NCBI GenBank assembly: GCA_947508055.1 | Contig: CANNRR010000009.1 | Coordinates: forward strand, 1-44,615 | Origin: Burkholderiales bacterium | Lineage (GTDB): Bacteria > Pseudomonadota > Gammaproteobacteria > Burkholderiales > Burkholderiaceae_C | Reading direction: 5' to 3' | Length of the DNA stretch: 44,615 nucleotides | Part shown: positions 2,769-19,639 of the stretch, in pieces | Position numbering within the stretch: position 1 is the stretch's first letter | Layout: each line of letters opens with the position of its first letter | Notes under the pieces: model-generated | The model's database searches: none | What the model saw: only the letters and a program-made list of their open reading frames with translations | What the model was told of the DNA's origin: nothing | Position numbers and translations under genes: made by a program

Positions 2769-3203
2769 ATGAAAATATTGTTGCCCGTTGATGGCTCCGA
2801 GTTGTCGCTGGAGGCCGTCCGCTTTGCCATCCGCATGGTGCTGGCAGGTCTACGGGCCGATGCCGTGCTGGCCAATGTGCAGGAACCTGCCAATTTGTAC
2901 GAGTTGCTGGTCGCCCATGACCCCGAGGTTATCAACCGGGTGAGCGGGGAGGCCGGCCTGCACGCCCTGCAGTCTGCCCAGACCTTGCTGGACGCTGCTG
3001 GTGTGGAGTACGAGTGCGAAGTGGCCAAGGGCGACCCGGCACACACCATCGTGGACATTGCCGAGCGCTTTGCCTGTGACCTGATCGTGATGGGGGCACG
3101 CGGCAACAGCGCTTTGCGCAGCGCCATGATGGGTTCGGTGTCCAACGAAGTGCTACACGCCAGTGCGGTGCCGGTGATGATCGTCAAACCGGATGAAGTC
3201 TGA
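2769..3203 (+). CDS. Universal stress protein, UspA family
   Basis: A single-domain UspA protein of 144 residues. It opens with MKILLPVDGSELSLEAV. The ATP-binding signature GxxGx9GS is present as MGARGNSALRSAMMGSVSNE, which places it in the ATP-binding UspFG-like subgroup rather than the UspA subgroup that lacks it. The C-terminus VPVMIVKP is typical. Family members support survival under starvation or oxidative stress, but the specific role is unknown. It lies 49 bases after coaD and 9 bases before a ferredoxin gene, so these are probably co-transcribed. Confidence 0.93.
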   Translation: MKILLPVDGSELSLEAVRFAIRMVLAGLRADAVLANVQEPANLYELLVAHDPEVINRVSGEAGLHALQSAQTLLDAAGVEYECEVAKGDPAHTIVDIAERFACDLIVMGARGNSALRSAMMGSVSNEVLHASAVPVMIVKPDEV

Positions 3204-3212
3204 ACGACGACC

Positions 3213-3476
3213 ATGGCGCTGATCATTACCGACGAGTGCATCAATTGTGATGTCTGTGAGCCCGAGTGCCCCAATGAGGCCATCTACATGGGCAAAGATA
3301 TCTATGAAATTGACCCGAACAAATGCACCGAGTGCGTCGGGCATTTTGATGAGCCGCAGTGCGTCCAAGTGTGCCCGGTGTCCTGCATTCCGGTGAACCC
3401 TCTTTTTGTTGAGGACAACGCAACGTTGTGGAAAAAATACCGTATGTTGCAGCAAATTACCGTGACGAAAGCGTAG
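3213..3476 (+). CDS. YfhL-type 2[4Fe-4S] ferredoxin
   Basis: A small electron carrier of 87 residues. Two cysteine clusters are visible: CINCDVCEPECPNEAI (CxxCxxCxxxCP) and CTECVGHFDEPQCVQVCPVSCI. In the second, an eight-residue loop separates the second and third cysteines, the hallmark of Alvin/YfhL-type ferredoxins with two clusters of unequal potential. The extended C-terminal helix (VEDNATLWKKYRMLQQI) is also typical. The redox partner cannot be told from context. Its stop lies three bases from the stop of the convergent secreted protein. Confidence 0.93.
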   Translation: MALIITDECINCDVCEPECPNEAIYMGKDIYEIDPNKCTECVGHFDEPQCVQVCPVSCIPVNPLFVEDNATLWKKYRMLQQITVTKA

Positions 3477-3479
3477 CCC

Positions 3480-3938
3480 CTATTTGGTGGCGCTGGCCGC
3501 CTGCTTGGGTTTCTCTGCGGCAGACCGGGCCGCGAATTGTTCTGATTCCTTCTTCTTTTTAGCAGACTTTTTTCCGGCACTTGTCTTGTGGGAAGAGACC
3601 GTACCACCAGGGCGCTTGCTGGGCTTGTCCATTGACTTGACAGGTACTTTCTTTGCAGCGGCAGCGGCCAATTTGGCGTTGTCTGCGCGTTGTTGCGCCT
3701 CCTCTTTCAGGCGTGTTTTTTCCATGGCATTGGCGGCTGCCGAGTCCCTTTTGATCAGCGCATCGGATTCCGCTTTTTGCGCCGCGCTGCGGGAGTCCTG
3801 CACGTCGACCACCACTCCATCGGCGCAGGGCTTTTGGCTGTAGGCGTTGCCACATTTGTAGACATTTTGAGCTGTAGTCCCCGTGGATAATGCGCATAGC
3901 GCTACATAAAATATAGCAACCTGGGTGTTGAGTTTCAC
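3480..3938 (-). CDS. Small secreted DUF4124-like protein
   Basis: A 152-residue protein starting at GTG 3936-3938. The GTGA there overlaps the pth stop by 4 bases, so the two are translationally coupled. An N-terminal signal peptide ([24 protein letters not shown]) precedes a short [16 protein letters not shown] motif, which resembles the N-terminal motif of DUF4124 proteins. The rest is a charged, Ala/Lys-rich low-complexity tail, probably helical or disordered. The function is unknown, with a periplasmic location expected. The signal peptide core is encoded by a copy of a dispersed 17-nt motif at 3901-3917. Confidence 0.75.
3901..3917 (-). repeat. 17-nt motif GCTAT-N7-GTAGC, copy 1
   Basis: On the minus strand it reads GCTATATTTTATGTAGC and encodes part of VAIFYVA in the signal peptide of the DUF4124-like protein. 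It is the same palindromic motif seen at 7982, 16426, 20108, 24019 and 41039. Confidence 0.6.
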
Positions 3939-4570
3939 GGCATGCCTTTCGAATCGGTTGATGGGATGGTCGGTGGCGCAGGGGTGTGGGCTCGCGGCGG
4001 CTTGTTGGTGTGCACCAGGAGGGTGGCTTTTTCCATGTTGCCTGCGAGAAAAGCTGGCAATGCCTTGAGCGAGTGGTCAATGCACTGCTTAATGGCAATT
4101 CGGTGGTCCAGTGAGGGCTTCTTCAGTACCCAATTCACGACTTCGTCCTTGTTGCCTGGATGGCCTACGCCCAGGCGCAAACGCCAGTAGTCGCCACTGC
4201 CCAGTTGGGCGTGGATATCGCGCAGGCCGTTGTGACCCGCGTGGCTACCACCAAACTTCAGTTTGACCTGGCCCGGCGAAATGTCGAGTTCATCATGGGC
4301 GACCAGGATTTCCTGGGGGGCGACTTTGAAAAACCGGGCCAATGCCGCTACTGATTTGCCAGACAGGTTCATAAAGGTTTGCGGTTGCAGGAGCCAGACA
4401 GTGTTGCCATGCACGGTTGCACGTGCAACCATGCCGTGGCAGCCCTTTTCCAGGGTCAAACCGGTTTTGAGTTCACGAGCCAATGCGTCAACCCACCAGA
4501 AGCCTGCGTTGTGGCGGGTGGCTTCGTATTCCGGGCCTGGATTGCCAAGGCCGACAAACAGTTTGATCAT
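3935..4570 (-). CDS. pth: Peptidyl-tRNA hydrolase
   Basis: Pth hydrolyses the ester bond of peptidyl-tRNAs released from stalled ribosomes and recycles tRNA. The residues that matter in E. coli Pth are all present at the same numbers: N10 ([14 protein letters not shown]), catalytic H20, N68 (TFMNLSGKS), D93 (AHDELD) and N114 ([11 protein letters not shown]). At 211 residues it has a slightly extended, Pro-rich C-terminal tail ([16 protein letters not shown]). It lies downstream of rplY, as in most Burkholderiales, but a strong terminator separates them. It is coupled by a 4-base overlap to the secreted protein after it. Confidence 0.97.
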
Positions 4571-10680: not shown

Positions 10681-12636
10681 TTGACTACTTCATTTAACGA
10701 ACAATTTGACCAGCTCGGCACATGGCGCAGGGAATTCGCGTTGCGGTTGAAATTGCTTTCCGAGTGGATGAAGGACAACGAACTGCTGGATGCAGCGGTT
10801 GAGGAGCGACTGCGCCGGTTGGGTACCCAGGTTCGATCCGACAAGGTGATGGTGGCCTTCGTGGCCGAGTTCTCGCGCGGCAAGTCGGAGATGATCAACG
10901 CGGTTTTTTTTGCGGGCTATGGCCGCCGCATCATGCCCGCCAGCGCAGGACGCACCACCATGTGCCCTACGGAAATGGGTTACGACGCCGATGTACCGCC
11001 CTGCTTGCGTCTATTGCCCATTGAGAGCCGACTGGAGCCTCAGGCCCTCATGGAATGGCGCATGGTTCCCGAAAAGTGGACGCGCATTGATCTGGATGTA
11101 AACAATCCGCAACAGTTGGCATCGGCTCTGGAAAAAGTCGCGGAAACCCGCAAGGTGACGCAGGATGAAGCCCGGGCTTTGGGCTTTTGGCACAGCCAGG
11201 CGCCCGAAGACAACCCGATGGTCGATGCGCAAGGCATGGTGGAGGTGCCCAAATGGCGTCACGCGTTGATCAATATCGCTCACCCCTTACTCAAGCAGGG
11301 GCTGGTCATTTTGGATACGCCCGGCCTGAACGCCATTGGCGCTGAGCCCGAATTGACCGTCAGTTTGATCCCGCAGGCGCATGCAGTCGTGTTCATTTTG
11401 GGGGCGGATACGGGAGTCACCAAATCGGACCTTGCCATTTGGCGTGAGCATTTGGCAACGGAAACCGATACCGCAGAAACTCGTCTGATCGTATTGAACA
11501 AGATTGACACGCTGTGGGACGACCTCAGCACTGCGGCGCAGATTGAAGCTCAAATTGAACGCCAAAAAGCGAGTACGGCAGAAATCTTGGGTGTTCCGCA
11601 GGACCGGGTTATCGCCGTTTCAGCGCAAAAGGGCCTGGTTGCGAAAGTCACGAACGACGAGAAATTGCTGCAGCGCAGTTGCTTGCCGTTGCTGGAAGAT
11701 GCACTGGGCCGCGGCATGATGGGCAAGCGCCAGCGCATTCTTGGTAACGCCATGGCGGTGGGCATCACCGACTTGCGTGCCGAAACAGCCCGTGTCATCA
11801 ACATTCGCAAGCGCGACCTGACCGAGCAGATGATGGAGCTCAAAGGCTTGCAGGGAAAAAATGCGGTGGTGATCAAACACATGCGTTCGCGCATCTCGCA
11901 AGAGCAAGCCGAGTTTGACCTTGGCGGTGCCAAAATTCACGCCGTGCGCTCGGTTCATCTGAAATTACTTCGCGAAGTATTTGGCATTCTTGGTTCCACC
12001 ACGCTGAAGAAGGAAATGTCCCAGCTCAGTGGTCGTCTGCTGGAAAAAGGCCTCAAACTGGGGGTCAAGCGGGCCTATGGCGAGACCTTCGATCGCCTGC
12101 GTACCAACCTTAAAAAGGTGCAAACCTTGTGTGGCGAGATTCAGGCCATGCTGGGTGGCACCTTCCGCCAACTCAACGGCGAATACGGCTTCTCATTGCA
12201 GGCTCCCTCAGAGCCGCAAATGGCGCAGTATGTGACCGATCTGGATATGGTCGAGCGCAGTCACATCCAGTACCTTGGCATTGGTAACGCCTTCAAGCTC
12301 GCACAACCTGATTTTGCAGATCGCTTGGTGCGTGCGTTGTCCACGCGGCTACGCAGCGTCCATGAAATGGCGCTGGCTGATGTGGAGTTGTGGAGCAAGT
12401 CAGCGGCTGCACAATTGGATGCCCAGTTGCGTGAGCGCCGCCGTAACTTCAGCCGGCGCATCGAAGCCATTGACCGTATCCAGCAGGCCGCTGGCGGTCT
12501 GGAAGACCGTATACAGGATATCGATCAGCAGGAGGCGGCATTGAGCCATGTTGAGCTCAAGCTGACTGAGCTGACCGATTACCTGATCGCGGTTAATCAA
12601 CCCATCAGCACACCTGTAGACATTGAGTTCGCCTGA
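10681..12636 (+). CDS. Dynamin-like GTPase
   Basis: A large GTPase of about 651 residues. I prefer the TTG at 10681 (MTTSFNEQFDQLGTW) because GGGAG lies 5 bases before it; an ATG at 10630 directly abuts the mutM stop without a ribosome site. GTPase motifs are AEFSRGKSEMIN (P-loop, with Ala in place of the first Gly), LDTPGLNA (G3) and LNKIDTLWDD (G4). A long helical region follows, with coiled-coil-like stretches around RKRDLTEQMMELKGLQ and near the C-terminus (RIQDIDQQEAALSHVELKL). No membrane segment is evident. Bacterial dynamin relatives remodel membranes or bind at damage sites, but the role here is unknown. It sits tightly between mutM and mutY (2 bases before mutY). Confidence 0.83.
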   Translation: MTTSFNEQFDQLGTWRREFALRLKLLSEWMKDNELLDAAVEERLRRLGTQVRSDKVMVAFVAEFSRGKSEMINAVFFAGYGRRIMPASAGRTTMCPTEMGYDADVPPCLRLLPIESRLEPQALMEWRMVPEKWTRIDLDVNNPQQLASALEKVAETRKVTQDEARALGFWHSQAPEDNPMVDAQGMVEVPKWRHALINIAHPLLKQGLVILDTPGLNAIGAEPELTVSLIPQAHAVVFILGADTGVTKSDLAIWREHLATETDTAETRLIVLNKIDTLWDDLSTAAQIEAQIERQKASTAEILGVPQDRVIAVSAQKGLVAKVTNDEKLLQRSCLPLLEDALGRGMMGKRQRILGNAMAVGITDLRAETARVINIRKRDLTEQMMELKGLQGKNAVVIKHMRSRISQEQAEFDLGGAKIHAVRSVHLKLLREVFGILGSTTLKKEMSQLSGRLLEKGLKLGVKRAYGETFDRLRTNLKKVQTLCGEIQAMLGGTFRQLNGEYGFSLQAPSEPQMAQYVTDLDMVERSHIQYLGIGNAFKLAQPDFADRLVRALSTRLRSVHEMALADVELWSKSAAAQLDAQLRERRRNFSRRIEAIDRIQQAAGGLEDRIQDIDQQEAALSHVELKLTELTDYLIAVNQPISTPVDIEFA

Positions 12637-17150: not shown

Positions 17151-17178
17151 TGTCAAATTACATCACTAAAATGTGCCG

Positions 17179-18183
17179 ATGCTCGATGAACGTTCCAAGT
17201 TGTTGTTGAAAGCGCTGGTAGAACGCTACATCGCCGATGGTCAGCCCATTGGCAGTCGCACGTTGTCAAAGGCGTCTGGTCTGGAACTGTCACCGGCCAC
17301 TATCCGCAATGTGATGTCTGACCTGGAAGAGCTAGGCCTCATAGTCAGCCCACATACATCGGCCGGGCGCATACCCACCGCGCGAGGCTACCGCTTGTTT
17401 GTCGACACCATGCTCACCGTGCACCCTAGCCAGTACGGCTCGCACAGCCTGGCGCCGGATCAACCGCAAAAGGTGATGTCCAACGCGGCCAATTTACTCT
17501 CCAACCTGTCACAGTTTGTCGGCGTGGTGATAGCGCCCAAGCGCACGTCGGTGTTTCGGCACATTGAGTTTTTGCGGCTCTCGGAGCGCCGCGTACTGGT
17601 CATCATCGTGTCGCCCGATGGGGACGTGCAAAACCGCGTCATCTTTACCGAGATGGATTACTCACAATCGCAACTGGTTGAGGCCGCCAATTTTCTCAAC
17701 AGCCACTACGTGGGCATGGACATCGACAACGTGCGTGAGCGACTACAGGGTGAAGTGGAGTCCCTGCGGTCCGAAATTGCCACGCTCATGCAGGCTGCAG
17801 TCACGGTTAGTTCTGAGGCCATTACTGAGTCGCAGGACGAGGTCATCATCTCGGGTGAGCGCAACCTGTTGTCGGTGTCCGATTTTTCCAGCGACATGGG
17901 ACACTTGCGCCGAGCGTTTGAGCTGTTTGAGCAAAAGGCCCAGTTGATGCGCCTGATGGACATCGCCGGCCAGGCCGAAGGCGTGCGCATCTTCATCGGC
18001 GGCGAAAGCCAGGTGGTGCCGTTTGAAGATCTGTCCATCGTCACCAGTCCGTATGAGGTGGACGGCAAGGTGGTGGGCACCCTGGGCGTCATCGGCCCCA
18101 CGCGCATGGCCTATGACCGAATGATCCAAATTGTCGACATTACGTCCAAATTGGTGAGTAACGCGCTGAGTCATCACAAGTAA
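17179..18183 (+). CDS. hrcA: Heat-inducible transcription repressor HrcA
   Basis: HrcA binds CIRCE operators and represses groESL and dnaK operons, with GroEL as its folding co-factor. I start at ATG 17179 ([18 protein letters not shown]), giving 334 residues; an in-frame GTG at 17173 is possible. The N-terminal winged helix contains [26 protein letters not shown]. The inserted GAF-like domain has [18 protein letters not shown], and the C-terminal part [15 protein letters not shown] found no CIRCE element (TTAGCACTC-N9-GAGTGCTAA) in the window, so it seems not to regulate itself through one here. Confidence 0.96.
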
Positions 18184-18217: not shown

Positions 18218-18498
18218 GGGGCGTTAGCTCAGTTGGTTAGAGCAGAGGACTCATAAAATATTGTGCACCTTGGCAGGAAACTCCGAGTGTGAATGGTGTC
18301 AAATTCGGCGAAATCTAAGTGCAGCAATGCATATGACAACGCCGAGCCAAGCTTGGTGAGAAATCACTTTGAAGGTGTAGAGACTAGACGGCACCCATCT
18401 AAGGCGCAAGCTACGATGAAGGCATAGTCCAGGGAGTAGCGAAAGCTACACAAACCGGAATCCTTTGGTCGAGTGTTCAAGTCACTCACGCCCTACCA
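18218..18498 (+). tRNA. tRNA with CAU anticodon (probably tRNA-Ile2), split by a group I intron
   Basis: The exons 18218-18254 and 18459-18498 join into a complete 77-nt tRNA with encoded CCA. The acceptor GGGGCGT pairs with ACGCCCT (first pair G-U), the D arm is GCTCAGTTGGTTAGAGC, the anticodon stem is GAGGA/TCCTT with loop CTCATAA, and the T arm is GAGTG-TTCAAGT-CACTC. The CAU anticodon could be Met or Ile2, which is converted to lysidine-AU by TilS and reads AUA. The loop and variable region (TTTGGTC, TTCAAGT) resemble E. coli tRNA-Ile2 more than elongator tRNA-Met, and the closest known intron sits in tRNA-Ile(CAU). The intron falls directly after anticodon position 36. Confidence 0.92.
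18255..18458 (+). ncRNA. Self-splicing group I intron, Azoarcus tRNA-Ile type (IC3)
   Basis: A 204-nt insertion in the anticodon loop. Eight bases after the 5' splice site the guide GTG (18263-18265) pairs with the exon end CAT (18252-18254), with the expected T-G wobble at the cut. P2 (18266-18291) is capped by a GAAA loop. The core runs through AAATTCGGCGAAATCTAAG (P4 region), AACGCCGAGCCAAGC and GTAGAGACTAGACGGCACC (P7/P3 region). P9 is GTAGC-GAAA-GCTAC at 18436-18449. The last base is G18458, the expected omega-G. Layout, length and core wording closely match the 205-nt Azoarcus intron as I know it. There is no open frame for a homing endonuclease. Confidence 0.95.
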
Positions 18499-18613: not shown

Positions 18614-19639
18614 ATGCGCAACAATATTTTGGTAACCGGTGGTGCCGGTTACATCGGTAGTCACACCTGCGTGGAGTTGCTCAATGCGGGCTACACGGTC
18701 ACCGTGTTCGACAACTACTGCAACAGCAAGCCCGAGGCCTTAAGCCGGGTGGAGCGCATTACCGGCAAGACGCTGGCCCGGGTGCAGGGCGATGTGCGCG
18801 ACCGCACCGCATTAGAGGAAGCCCTGCGCAGCAGCGGCGCAACAGCAGTCATCCACTTTGCCGGCCTGAAGGCAGTGGGCGAGTCGGGTCAGATGCCGCT
18901 GCACTATTATGACAACAACGTGGTGGGCACGCTACGCCTGCTGGAGGCCATGCAGGCCTGTGGCGTCCAGACCCTGGTATTTAGCTCGTCCGCCACCGTG
19001 TATGGTGACCCGCAGCGCCTGCCCTTAACCGAAGACCATCCCCTGTCGGCCACCAACCCCTACGGCCGCACCAAGCTGGCGGTAGAAGTCATGTTGCGTG
19101 ATGCTTTTGCGGCAGACGCCGGCTGGCGCTTTGGCGTGCTGCGCTACTTCAACCCCGTGGGGGCACATGCCAGTGGCATGATTGGCGAAGATCCGCACGG
19201 TGTTCCCAACAACTTGCTGCCCTTTGTTGCCCAGGTGGCGGTGGGGCGCCGCGAGTTTTTAAACGTGTGGGGTAACGACTACGCCACGCCAGACGGCACC
19301 GGCGTGCGCGACTACATTCACGTGGTCGACTTGGCACAGGGCCACCTGCGTGCGCTGGAGGCTTTGGGCCGGGCACCCACGGGGCAGTGCACCGCCATCA
19401 ACCTGGGCACCGGTGTGGGCTACAGCGTGCTGGATATGGTGAAGGCTTTTGAGCAAGCCAGCGGTAGATCCGTGCCCTTCAAGGTGCAGGCGCGCAGGCC
19501 AGGCGACATTGCAGCGTGTTACGCCAACCCCGTATTAGCACAGCAGTTATTAGGCTGGCAGGCTACGCGTGATTTGCAGACCATGTGTGCCGATGCCTGG
19601 CGCTGGCAGAGTAACAATCCGCAAGGGTATGAGTGCTAA
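18614..19639 (+). CDS. galE: UDP-glucose 4-epimerase
   Basis: GalE interconverts UDP-glucose and UDP-galactose, supplying galactose for polysaccharides or breaking it down. The 341-residue protein has the Rossmann motif VTGGAGYIGSHT at the N-terminus. The catalytic set is a Ser in FSSSATVYGDP (124-126), Tyr150 and Lys154 (NPYGRTK). Further conserved parts are FNPVGAH, GTGVRDYIHVVDLA and NLGTGVGYSVLDMV. AGGAAGGA upstream is a good ribosome site. No other sugar-nucleotide genes lie nearby. It starts 115 bases after the intron-bearing tRNA. Confidence 0.95.
   Translation: MRNNILVTGGAGYIGSHTCVELLNAGYTVTVFDNYCNSKPEALSRVERITGKTLARVQGDVRDRTALEEALRSSGATAVIHFAGLKAVGESGQMPLHYYDNNVVGTLRLLEAMQACGVQTLVFSSSATVYGDPQRLPLTEDHPLSATNPYGRTKLAVEVMLRDAFAADAGWRFGVLRYFNPVGAHASGMIGEDPHGVPNNLLPFVAQVAVGRREFLNVWGNDYATPDGTGVRDYIHVVDLAQGHLRALEALGRAPTGQCTAINLGTGVGYSVLDMVKAFEQASGRSVPFKVQARRPGDIAACYANPVLAQQLLGWQATRDLQTMCADAWRWQSNNPQGYEC

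Follow-up and report, generated by a model that had tools for sequence, protein, structure and literature searches.

In the 44,615-nucleotide stretch of DNA analysed here (hereafter the window; contig CANNRR010000009.1 of the Burkholderiales bacterium assembly GCA_947508055.1), positions 18255–18458 are a group I intron inserted directly after the anticodon of a 77-nt CAU tRNA. We consider it likely that this element-free intron, which splits the sole tRNA-Ile(CAU) gene detected in its genome, belongs to a lineage repeatedly carried by integrative elements that break and rescue tRNA-Ile.

The window intron and its tRNA

18218–18254, plus strand: tRNA-Ile(CAU) 5' exon (37 nt), through anticodon position 36 (ARAGORN with the intron option and on joined exons)
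18250–18256, plus strand: CTCATAA, 7-bp anticodon-loop sequence, its final two bases intronic in the window (sequence)
18252–18254, plus strand: CAU anticodon, serving as P1 5' splice-site strand with U.G at the cut (CG, AU and UG pairs with 18263–18265 in 29/29 introns)
18255–18458, plus strand: group I intron of the Azoarcus type, 204 nt (RF00028; covariation in 29 introns)
18263–18265, plus strand: internal guide sequence GUG (sequence alignment)
18277–18280, plus strand: P2 GAAA loop (sequence; GAAA invariant across the alignment)
18436–18449, plus strand: P9 hairpin GUAGC-GAAA-GCUAC (both-side changes at 4/5 pairs)
18459–18498, plus strand: tRNA-Ile(CAU) 3' exon (40 nt), CCA included (ARAGORN on joined exons)

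As an earlier note on this DNA had proposed, excising 18255–18458 gives a 77-nt CAU tRNA, which ARAGORN recognises only once the exons are joined or introns are searched for; run without the intron option, it found tRNA-Gln and tRNA-Arg alone in the window. The exons are identical (77/77) to the intact gene at 13 of 20 same-genus control loci. Because an excised block moved by 1–4 bases to the right still leaves a CAU tRNA (moved to the left, it leaves a Leu or Pro tRNA according to ARAGORN), the exact cut rests on the features of the intron, namely the CAU/GUG pairing, the U.G at the cut and the terminal G. The covariance search that the note had suggested places an RF00028 match at 18243–18451, with 53.1 bits (cut-off 50) and an E-value of 8.3e-11. 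The pairing of the guide GUG with the exon-end CAU, through a U.G wobble at the cut, recurs in 29/29 aligned introns together with the terminal G, and the GAAA loops of P2 and P9 are present as described. The CTCATAA motif is repeated at both ends of two related elements (L249 and L257, see below).

The likeness to the Azoarcus (IC3-like) tRNA-Ile(CAU) intron also held, the window intron being identical at 166/205 positions (81%) to an intron (L189; G487:C1:3636081-3636280) that we take to be the Azoarcus BH72 ribozyme. The tRNA-Ile(CAU) intron of Azoarcus sp. BH72 belongs to group IC3, with a CAU/GUG P1 and GAAA loops in P2 and P9; both introns have in common the tRNA, the insertion point, the size class, this P1 and these loops, whereas the window and L189 differ in the sequences of their peripheral helices, and the gene lies after hrcA in the former and after an rpoD-like ORF in the latter. 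The IC3 subgroup is taken from this likeness to the Azoarcus intron, and RF00028 does not separate subgroups. With no tRNA piece near it, the L189 intron, behind its rpoD-like ORF (named by inspection), is also an element-free copy.

Structure and covariation

Introns of tRNA-Ile(CAU) are called here type A (Ile_A) when they lie after U36, and type B when they lie about after U33. An alignment of 29 of the 46 Ile_A introns sized 195–226 nt, including that of the window, with 8 nt of exon per side, was used to score 46 pairs from P1 to P9, the P7 pseudoknot being added by hand. Pairing cells reached 98.8%, as compared with 88.2% after shuffling of columns and 26–42% with slid partners; most of the pairs derive from a consensus fold computed on these very introns, and this gives the unslid structure an advantage. 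Both-side changes occurred in 23/46 pairs. The core helices P3, P4, P6, P7 and P8 show covariation, P7 pseudoknot included, and one P7 pair turns from A-U to U-A in 3/29 introns; the CG, AU and UG pairs of P1 are invariant and the P1 pairs that follow vary compatibly. The best nested folds gave z-scores of −2.67 for the pre-tRNA and −2.32 for the intron alone, and the whole core is absent from both because nested folding cannot show it. Judged from this alignment, the predicted P1–P9 structure is more than chance.

The tRNA-Ile(CAU) gene in its own genome

The assembly (G000) comprises 389 contigs, with a completeness of 91.8% and a contamination of 6.8%. Its 39 tRNA matches include three intact CAU tRNAs outside the window. 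None of them is the window tRNA, and from their features we take them to be the initiator and two elongator tRNAs-Met. No intact copy of the window tRNA was detected in G000 with a 30-base pattern allowing 3 mismatches, the sole match to its 5' part was the window's own, and no convincing 3' piece was found, the six matches with 2–3 mismatches being about what the backward control gave. TilS is present. Among the matches listed against E. coli, the joined tRNA had only tRNA-Lys (77.9%). The earlier note had argued that splicing would be essential if this were the only copy, and this stands for an assembly that is 91.8% complete, the isotype resting partly on known features of CAU tRNAs: since no other gene of this tRNA was found and TilS is present, splicing is probably needed for the reading of AUA codons.

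Were the window tRNA instead an elongator tRNA-Met, AUA reading would be independent of splicing. ARAGORN labels all CAU tRNAs as Met, but the three other CAU tRNAs already look, by known features, like initiator and elongator tRNAs-Met, and the presence of TilS also makes this reading very improbable. Equally hard to sustain, and if anything more so, is the idea of a non-functional intron in a silent gene: its core helices are preserved, relatives show compensatory changes in them, and no intact replacement gene was found in the genome.

A second RF00028 match in G000 (39 bits, below the cut-off) lies in a tRNA-Leu(UAA) with a 222-nt intron between U34 and A35, the guide GAG of which pairs with the exon CUU (by inspection).

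G000:C25:29429-29636 (L002 1418-1732), minus strand: intron of the only tRNA-Leu(UAA) seen in G000 (RF00028)

Both tRNA-Ile(CAU) and tRNA-Leu(UAA) are thus seen in G000 only as intron-bearing genes, and both escaped ARAGORN when it was run without intron search. Further bacterial tRNA-Leu(UAA) group I introns exist, which the G000 intron resembles in its U34/A35 site, while it differs from the window intron in its site and guide (GAG for CUU). A recent jump between the two tRNAs of G000 was considered and rejected: identity between their introns is 68%, and both have closer relatives among introns of their own insertion site elsewhere.

Broken tRNA-Ile genes and complete elements in relatives

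A recurrent layout was found in relatives: a 5' part of tRNA-Ile, cut just past the anticodon loop, is followed by a spacer of 113–444 bp and then by a full intron-bearing tRNA. At one locus (L173), the broken part comes after the end of hrcA. Restricting the count to distinct introns that have 300 bp or more of upstream sequence, and to pieces no farther than 600 bp away, we found an upstream 5' piece for 27/88 tRNA-Ile(CAU) introns (23/63 of type A and 4/25 of type B; 61/88 without) and for 1/70 introns of other tRNAs (L141, Arg-UCU). Twenty intact intronless same-genus tRNA-Ile(CAU) loci, drawn from 57 exact matches of the tRNA pattern, showed no 5' piece within up to 3 kb. With identical loci counted, 29/30 Ile pieces end at or just past the anticodon loop (q39-46) and one ends at q35. 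The named carriers of Ile introns are Comamonadaceae, Burkholderiaceae, Sphaerotilaceae, Chromobacteriaceae, Sterolibacteriaceae and Rhodocyclaceae; Leptothrix discophora CCM 2812, Limnohabitans sp. Bal53 and Gulbenkiania mobilis DSM 18507 are examples of named carriers. On the tree of Ile_A introns, the 5' piece appears or disappears 17 times or more, so that the element context seems to be gained and lost often. In the tRNA-Arg(UCU) of Vibrio renipiscarius (L141 6705-7018), the piece upstream of the intron-bearing gene extends beyond the anticodon loop, as far as q57; 195 bp downstream lies an ORF that looks like an integrase by inspection.

Two complete elements of 9.5 and 10.3 kb (G082/L249 and G806/L257) split the resident tRNA at the anticodon loop and carry their own intron-split copy. 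The first is arranged as follows.

G082 (L249), 2281–2326: tRNA-Ile 5' piece, followed by arm-like repeats
G082, 2477–2759: intron-bearing tRNA
G082, 2853–4220: tyrosine integrase (PF00589), followed by other genes
G082, 11828–11872: 3' piece, starting at the same core CTCATAATCCTTTG

The T-stem form of this 3' piece is also present in two intact controls. In G806, CTCATAA forms the end of the 5' piece and the start of the 3' piece, the two lying about 10.3 kb apart; inside this element no integrase was recognised, and a partial one lies on another G806 contig. In both cases the resident halves stay broken and the only complete tRNA-Ile of the locus is the element's intron-split copy; G082 and G806 thus lack the canonical island trait of an attP fragment that restores the resident tRNA.

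Rescue tRNAs found from the integrase

Taking the G082 integrase as the query (E up to 1e-20), which avoids choosing loci by their intron, we found its family in 13/399 order, 11/399 family and 19/100 genus genomes, and fetched 64 integrase loci, some being two pieces of one gene. Eleven elements show both a tRNA-Ile 5' piece and a full rescue tRNA, the attachment core of which is altered in 11/11 and unmodified in 0/11. Seven rescue copies have intron A (G082, G013, G671-1, G744, G864, G130 and G676), one has intron B (G141), and three (G283, G344 and G825, i.e., L294, L298 and L315) are intronless tRNAs(CAU) with an anticodon stem rewritten on both sides of CTCATAA. At another 21 loci, which look canonical, the integrase lies next to a single unmodified tRNA (Lys-UUU 10, Phe 4, Ile 2, Asn 2, Leu-UAA 2 and Lys-CUU 1), canonical-looking meaning that the left-side upstream sequence, up to 1.6 kb and less at contig ends, has no anticodon-loop piece. 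A Fisher comparison of 11/11 with 0/21 does not test shielding, as the core of a canonical tRNA has to be preserved in any case; the figure that counts is 0/11 unmodified. The counts leave out G671-2, a tandem element with intron B; G088, which lies at a contig edge; G052 and L308, where only the 3' half is present; L323, which is ambiguous; L297; and the integrase loci without a nearby tRNA.

A phage identity of this integrase found no support, there being no INPHARED match and no confirmed IMG/VR relative in a search that reaches close relatives only; against plasmids, it gave five distant matches.

Three further loci are worth describing. L301 (G141, minus strand, 677-1403) has two successive, different tRNA-Ile 5' pieces before its intron B rescue tRNA and integrase, apparently the outcome of two integration rounds. 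L295 (G168, 510-1381) has five tandem 159-bp units, each with the first 19 nt of tRNA-Ile, and then an intact tRNA-Ile and an integrase. In L297 (G490, minus strand, about 1320-1360), a tRNA-Lys(CUU) cut after the anticodon loop lies next to a related integrase, and no rescue copy was seen. A second group of carriers (L163, L226, L229, L230, L231 and L233) has introns of 251–264 nt, similar spacers of 216–221 bp and, downstream, an ORF of another kind (of 426 aa in L267 and 373 aa in L231), with no G082-family integrase in the flanks examined; it is possibly another element family with the same trick.

Distribution and relatedness of the introns

RF00028 matches occur in 14/100 same-genus, at least 40/399 order and at least 42/399 family genomes (own genome counted each time), these counts being lower bounds because of the stricter filters applied when more than 40 genomes are searched. 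At least 118 loci came from a pattern scan of GTDB contigs. The 204 loci examined yielded 176 intron-bearing tRNA calls (74 Ile type A, 27 Ile type B and 75 other tRNAs), the 28 loci without such a call being left out of the counts, and 168 distinct introns after merging of identical ones. On a quick tree of 156 distinct introns, the insertion-site label changes 15 times, as compared with 81.4 times when shuffled, and the window intron falls in a 41-row set that is all Ile_A (SH-aLRT 99). Its nearest relative (L100, from a Rhodoferax MAG; 87.0%) comes with a 5' piece and an integrase, and the second nearest (L123, Limnohabitans; 86.8%) with a 5' piece, so that, to judge from their flanks, the two introns nearest to that of the window are element-borne. 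The earlier note had left the choice between an orthologous and a horizontally shared intron; with its patchy presence (14/100 genus genomes) and a tree that follows the insertion site, the intron looks horizontally shared. Phage and plasmid sequences gave only partial matches to the window intron, none covering 80% of it.

Introns also lie between U33 and C34 of an initiator-like tRNA-Met(CAU) at L047, L074, L084, L085, L094, L113, L116, L131, L147, L155 and L162, the carriers being, among the records whose titles were seen, Omnitrophota and Patescibacteria-type MAGs.

The window locus

17173–18183, plus strand: hrcA (ORF, named by inspection), usual upstream neighbour of tRNA-Ile(CAU) in the genus
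18614–19639, plus strand: galE-like gene (ORF, named by inspection), downstream of the tRNA

An hrcA homologue lies within 3 kb upstream of the tRNA in 16/20 intact same-genus controls, and a galE-like homologue within up to 3 kb of it in 0/20 (two controls have less than 1.2 kb downstream). The promoter-like stretch upstream of the window tRNA resembles, by eye, that of the intact relatives. No tRNA fragment was found in the window or elsewhere in its genome, and no G082-family integrase in this genome (E up to 1e-20). With neither the fragment nor the integrase of that family, the locus does not look like a canonical island; for the same reason, the window copy is element-free, at the native hrcA locus. 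We lean towards its acquisition from an element source by recombination. The resident 5' piece may have recombined with the identical 5' half of the rescue copy, or an exchange may have occurred with an element-bearing donor; plain transfer of the intron would be a further possibility.

Discussion

By analogy with the known family of introns, the pre-tRNA would fold the intron core, the CAU of the exon would pair with the guide GUG, and an external G would cut after U36, the tRNA halves being then joined. As for the elements, we propose that they insert at the anticodon loop, leaving CTCATAA at both ends and the resident tRNA as 5' and 3' pieces, and that they supply a second complete tRNA-Ile, the core of which would be split by the intron in DNA and restored by splicing in RNA. 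At the level of their nucleotides, the loci compared show a resident gene split at the anticodon loop, a second complete gene, an intron or a recoded stem across the core, and a shared integrase family. From this arrangement we infer that a G082-type tyrosine integrase made the junctions, that the alteration of the core hides the rescue tRNA from this integrase, and that splicing would restore the rescue tRNA. We cautiously favour the more general proposal that elements of Betaproteobacteria break tRNA-Ile(CAU) and bring a disguised replacement (by intron or recoded stem), and that the element-free introns in the window, and perhaps in Azoarcus, are relics of this traffic.

Several observations bear on the extent of any shielding. 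In the right-hand 3' piece of G671, CTCATAA runs into a type A intron and then exon 2, as if an intron-bearing resident gene had been entered; this one tandem array suggests that any shielding is incomplete. The intron of this 3' piece begins with AA and keeps all seven core bases, as does the window intron. Also against strict shielding, a truncated second copy of the intron 3' end and exon 2 sits 1.7 kb downstream of the full intron-bearing tRNA in Polynucleobacter (L087 4840-4950). The idea that element-borne introns break CTCATAA more often was rejected, the motif being kept in 3/23 element-borne and 8/40 clean introns (p 0.73); given this similar retention, any real shielding would have to come from the loss of the right half-site and not from the seven bases. 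The G671 array itself (G671:C2:180001-220000; L263 and L264) comprises two elements, both of which bring an integrase and a rescue tRNA-Ile of their own (with intron A in the first and intron B in the second), and ends in the resident 3' piece with the type A intron. Our preferred explanation is also weakened by the window itself, where neither a tRNA fragment nor, in its genome, an integrase of the G082 family was found, by the Ile introns without an upstream piece (61/88), by the break of L141 beyond the anticodon loop and by G806, with no recognised integrase.

The main competitor is that of an ordinary tRNA intron spread by recombination, homing or reverse splicing, the elements having captured intron-bearing alleles with no hiding role. 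Leu, Arg, fMet-like and other tRNAs do have related introns in their anticodon region, and pieces were found in 1/70 of these; introns cluster by site; the 5' pieces come and go on the Ile_A tree (17 changes); the G671 target was seemingly an intron-bearing gene; and the intron starts alike in element-borne and clean copies. This account nevertheless appears rather unlikely to us, as none of the 11 rescue copies found from the integrase is unmodified, three intronless ones have an anticodon stem recoded on both sides of the core, and the one place is taken by introns of two types with different insertion points (A after U36, B about after U33). It is far more difficult to regard the upstream 5' pieces as leftovers of a tandem duplication of the tRNA gene instead of attachment sites. 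They are indeed direct repeats 113–444 bp upstream of the full gene, but nearly all Ile pieces (29/30) end at q39-46, at or just past the anticodon loop, the 3' piece begins at the same core 9.5–10.3 kb away in both elements with a right end, and arm-like repeats stand at both ends, with the tyrosine integrase between them in G082; a duplication origin is therefore highly improbable.

By itself, the window intron is of a known type, and the novelty lies in the element setting of its relatives. Bacterial tRNA-Leu(UAA) group I introns are already on record (title in the reference list of PMC3984707). In canonical tRNA islands, as Islander describes them, the attP tRNA fragment restores the target gene (PMC4383910). 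The relatives' elements resemble these islands by the tyrosine integrase, the anticodon-loop crossover and the tRNA fragment at the island end, whereas they leave the two resident halves unrepaired and bring along a full-length tRNA of their own with an altered core; the window, unlike such islands, has neither fragment nor integrase. Randau and Soll, as cited in PMC4390854, proposed that disrupted tRNA genes of archaea protect against integration; with this idea, as reported there, our explanation shares the notion that interruption makes a tRNA gene a bad target for integration, but it deals with bacterial group I introns in the element's own rescue copy and not with archaeal tRNA genes. In Caldiarchaeum, intron gain in tRNAs and scattered tRNA fragments have been tied to the integration of mobile elements (work cited in PMC4390854); these are archaeal introns of another class, and a rescue copy with a hidden core does not appear in the passage concerned. 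Among the titles and abstract openings of the open-licence PMC literature, we found no description of intron-split or recoded rescue tRNAs in integrative elements.

These findings touch on the spread and persistence of those group I introns of tRNA genes that lack an endonuclease gene. Carriage by integrative elements would provide a vehicle for the intron, and the hiding of the attachment site a selective reason for it, which might explain why introns of the Azoarcus ribozyme lineage lie in the anticodon loop of tRNA-Ile. If this is true, a catalytic RNA would hide a DNA target and carry out the repair at the RNA level, and the element setting makes both the spread and the upkeep of such introns testable.
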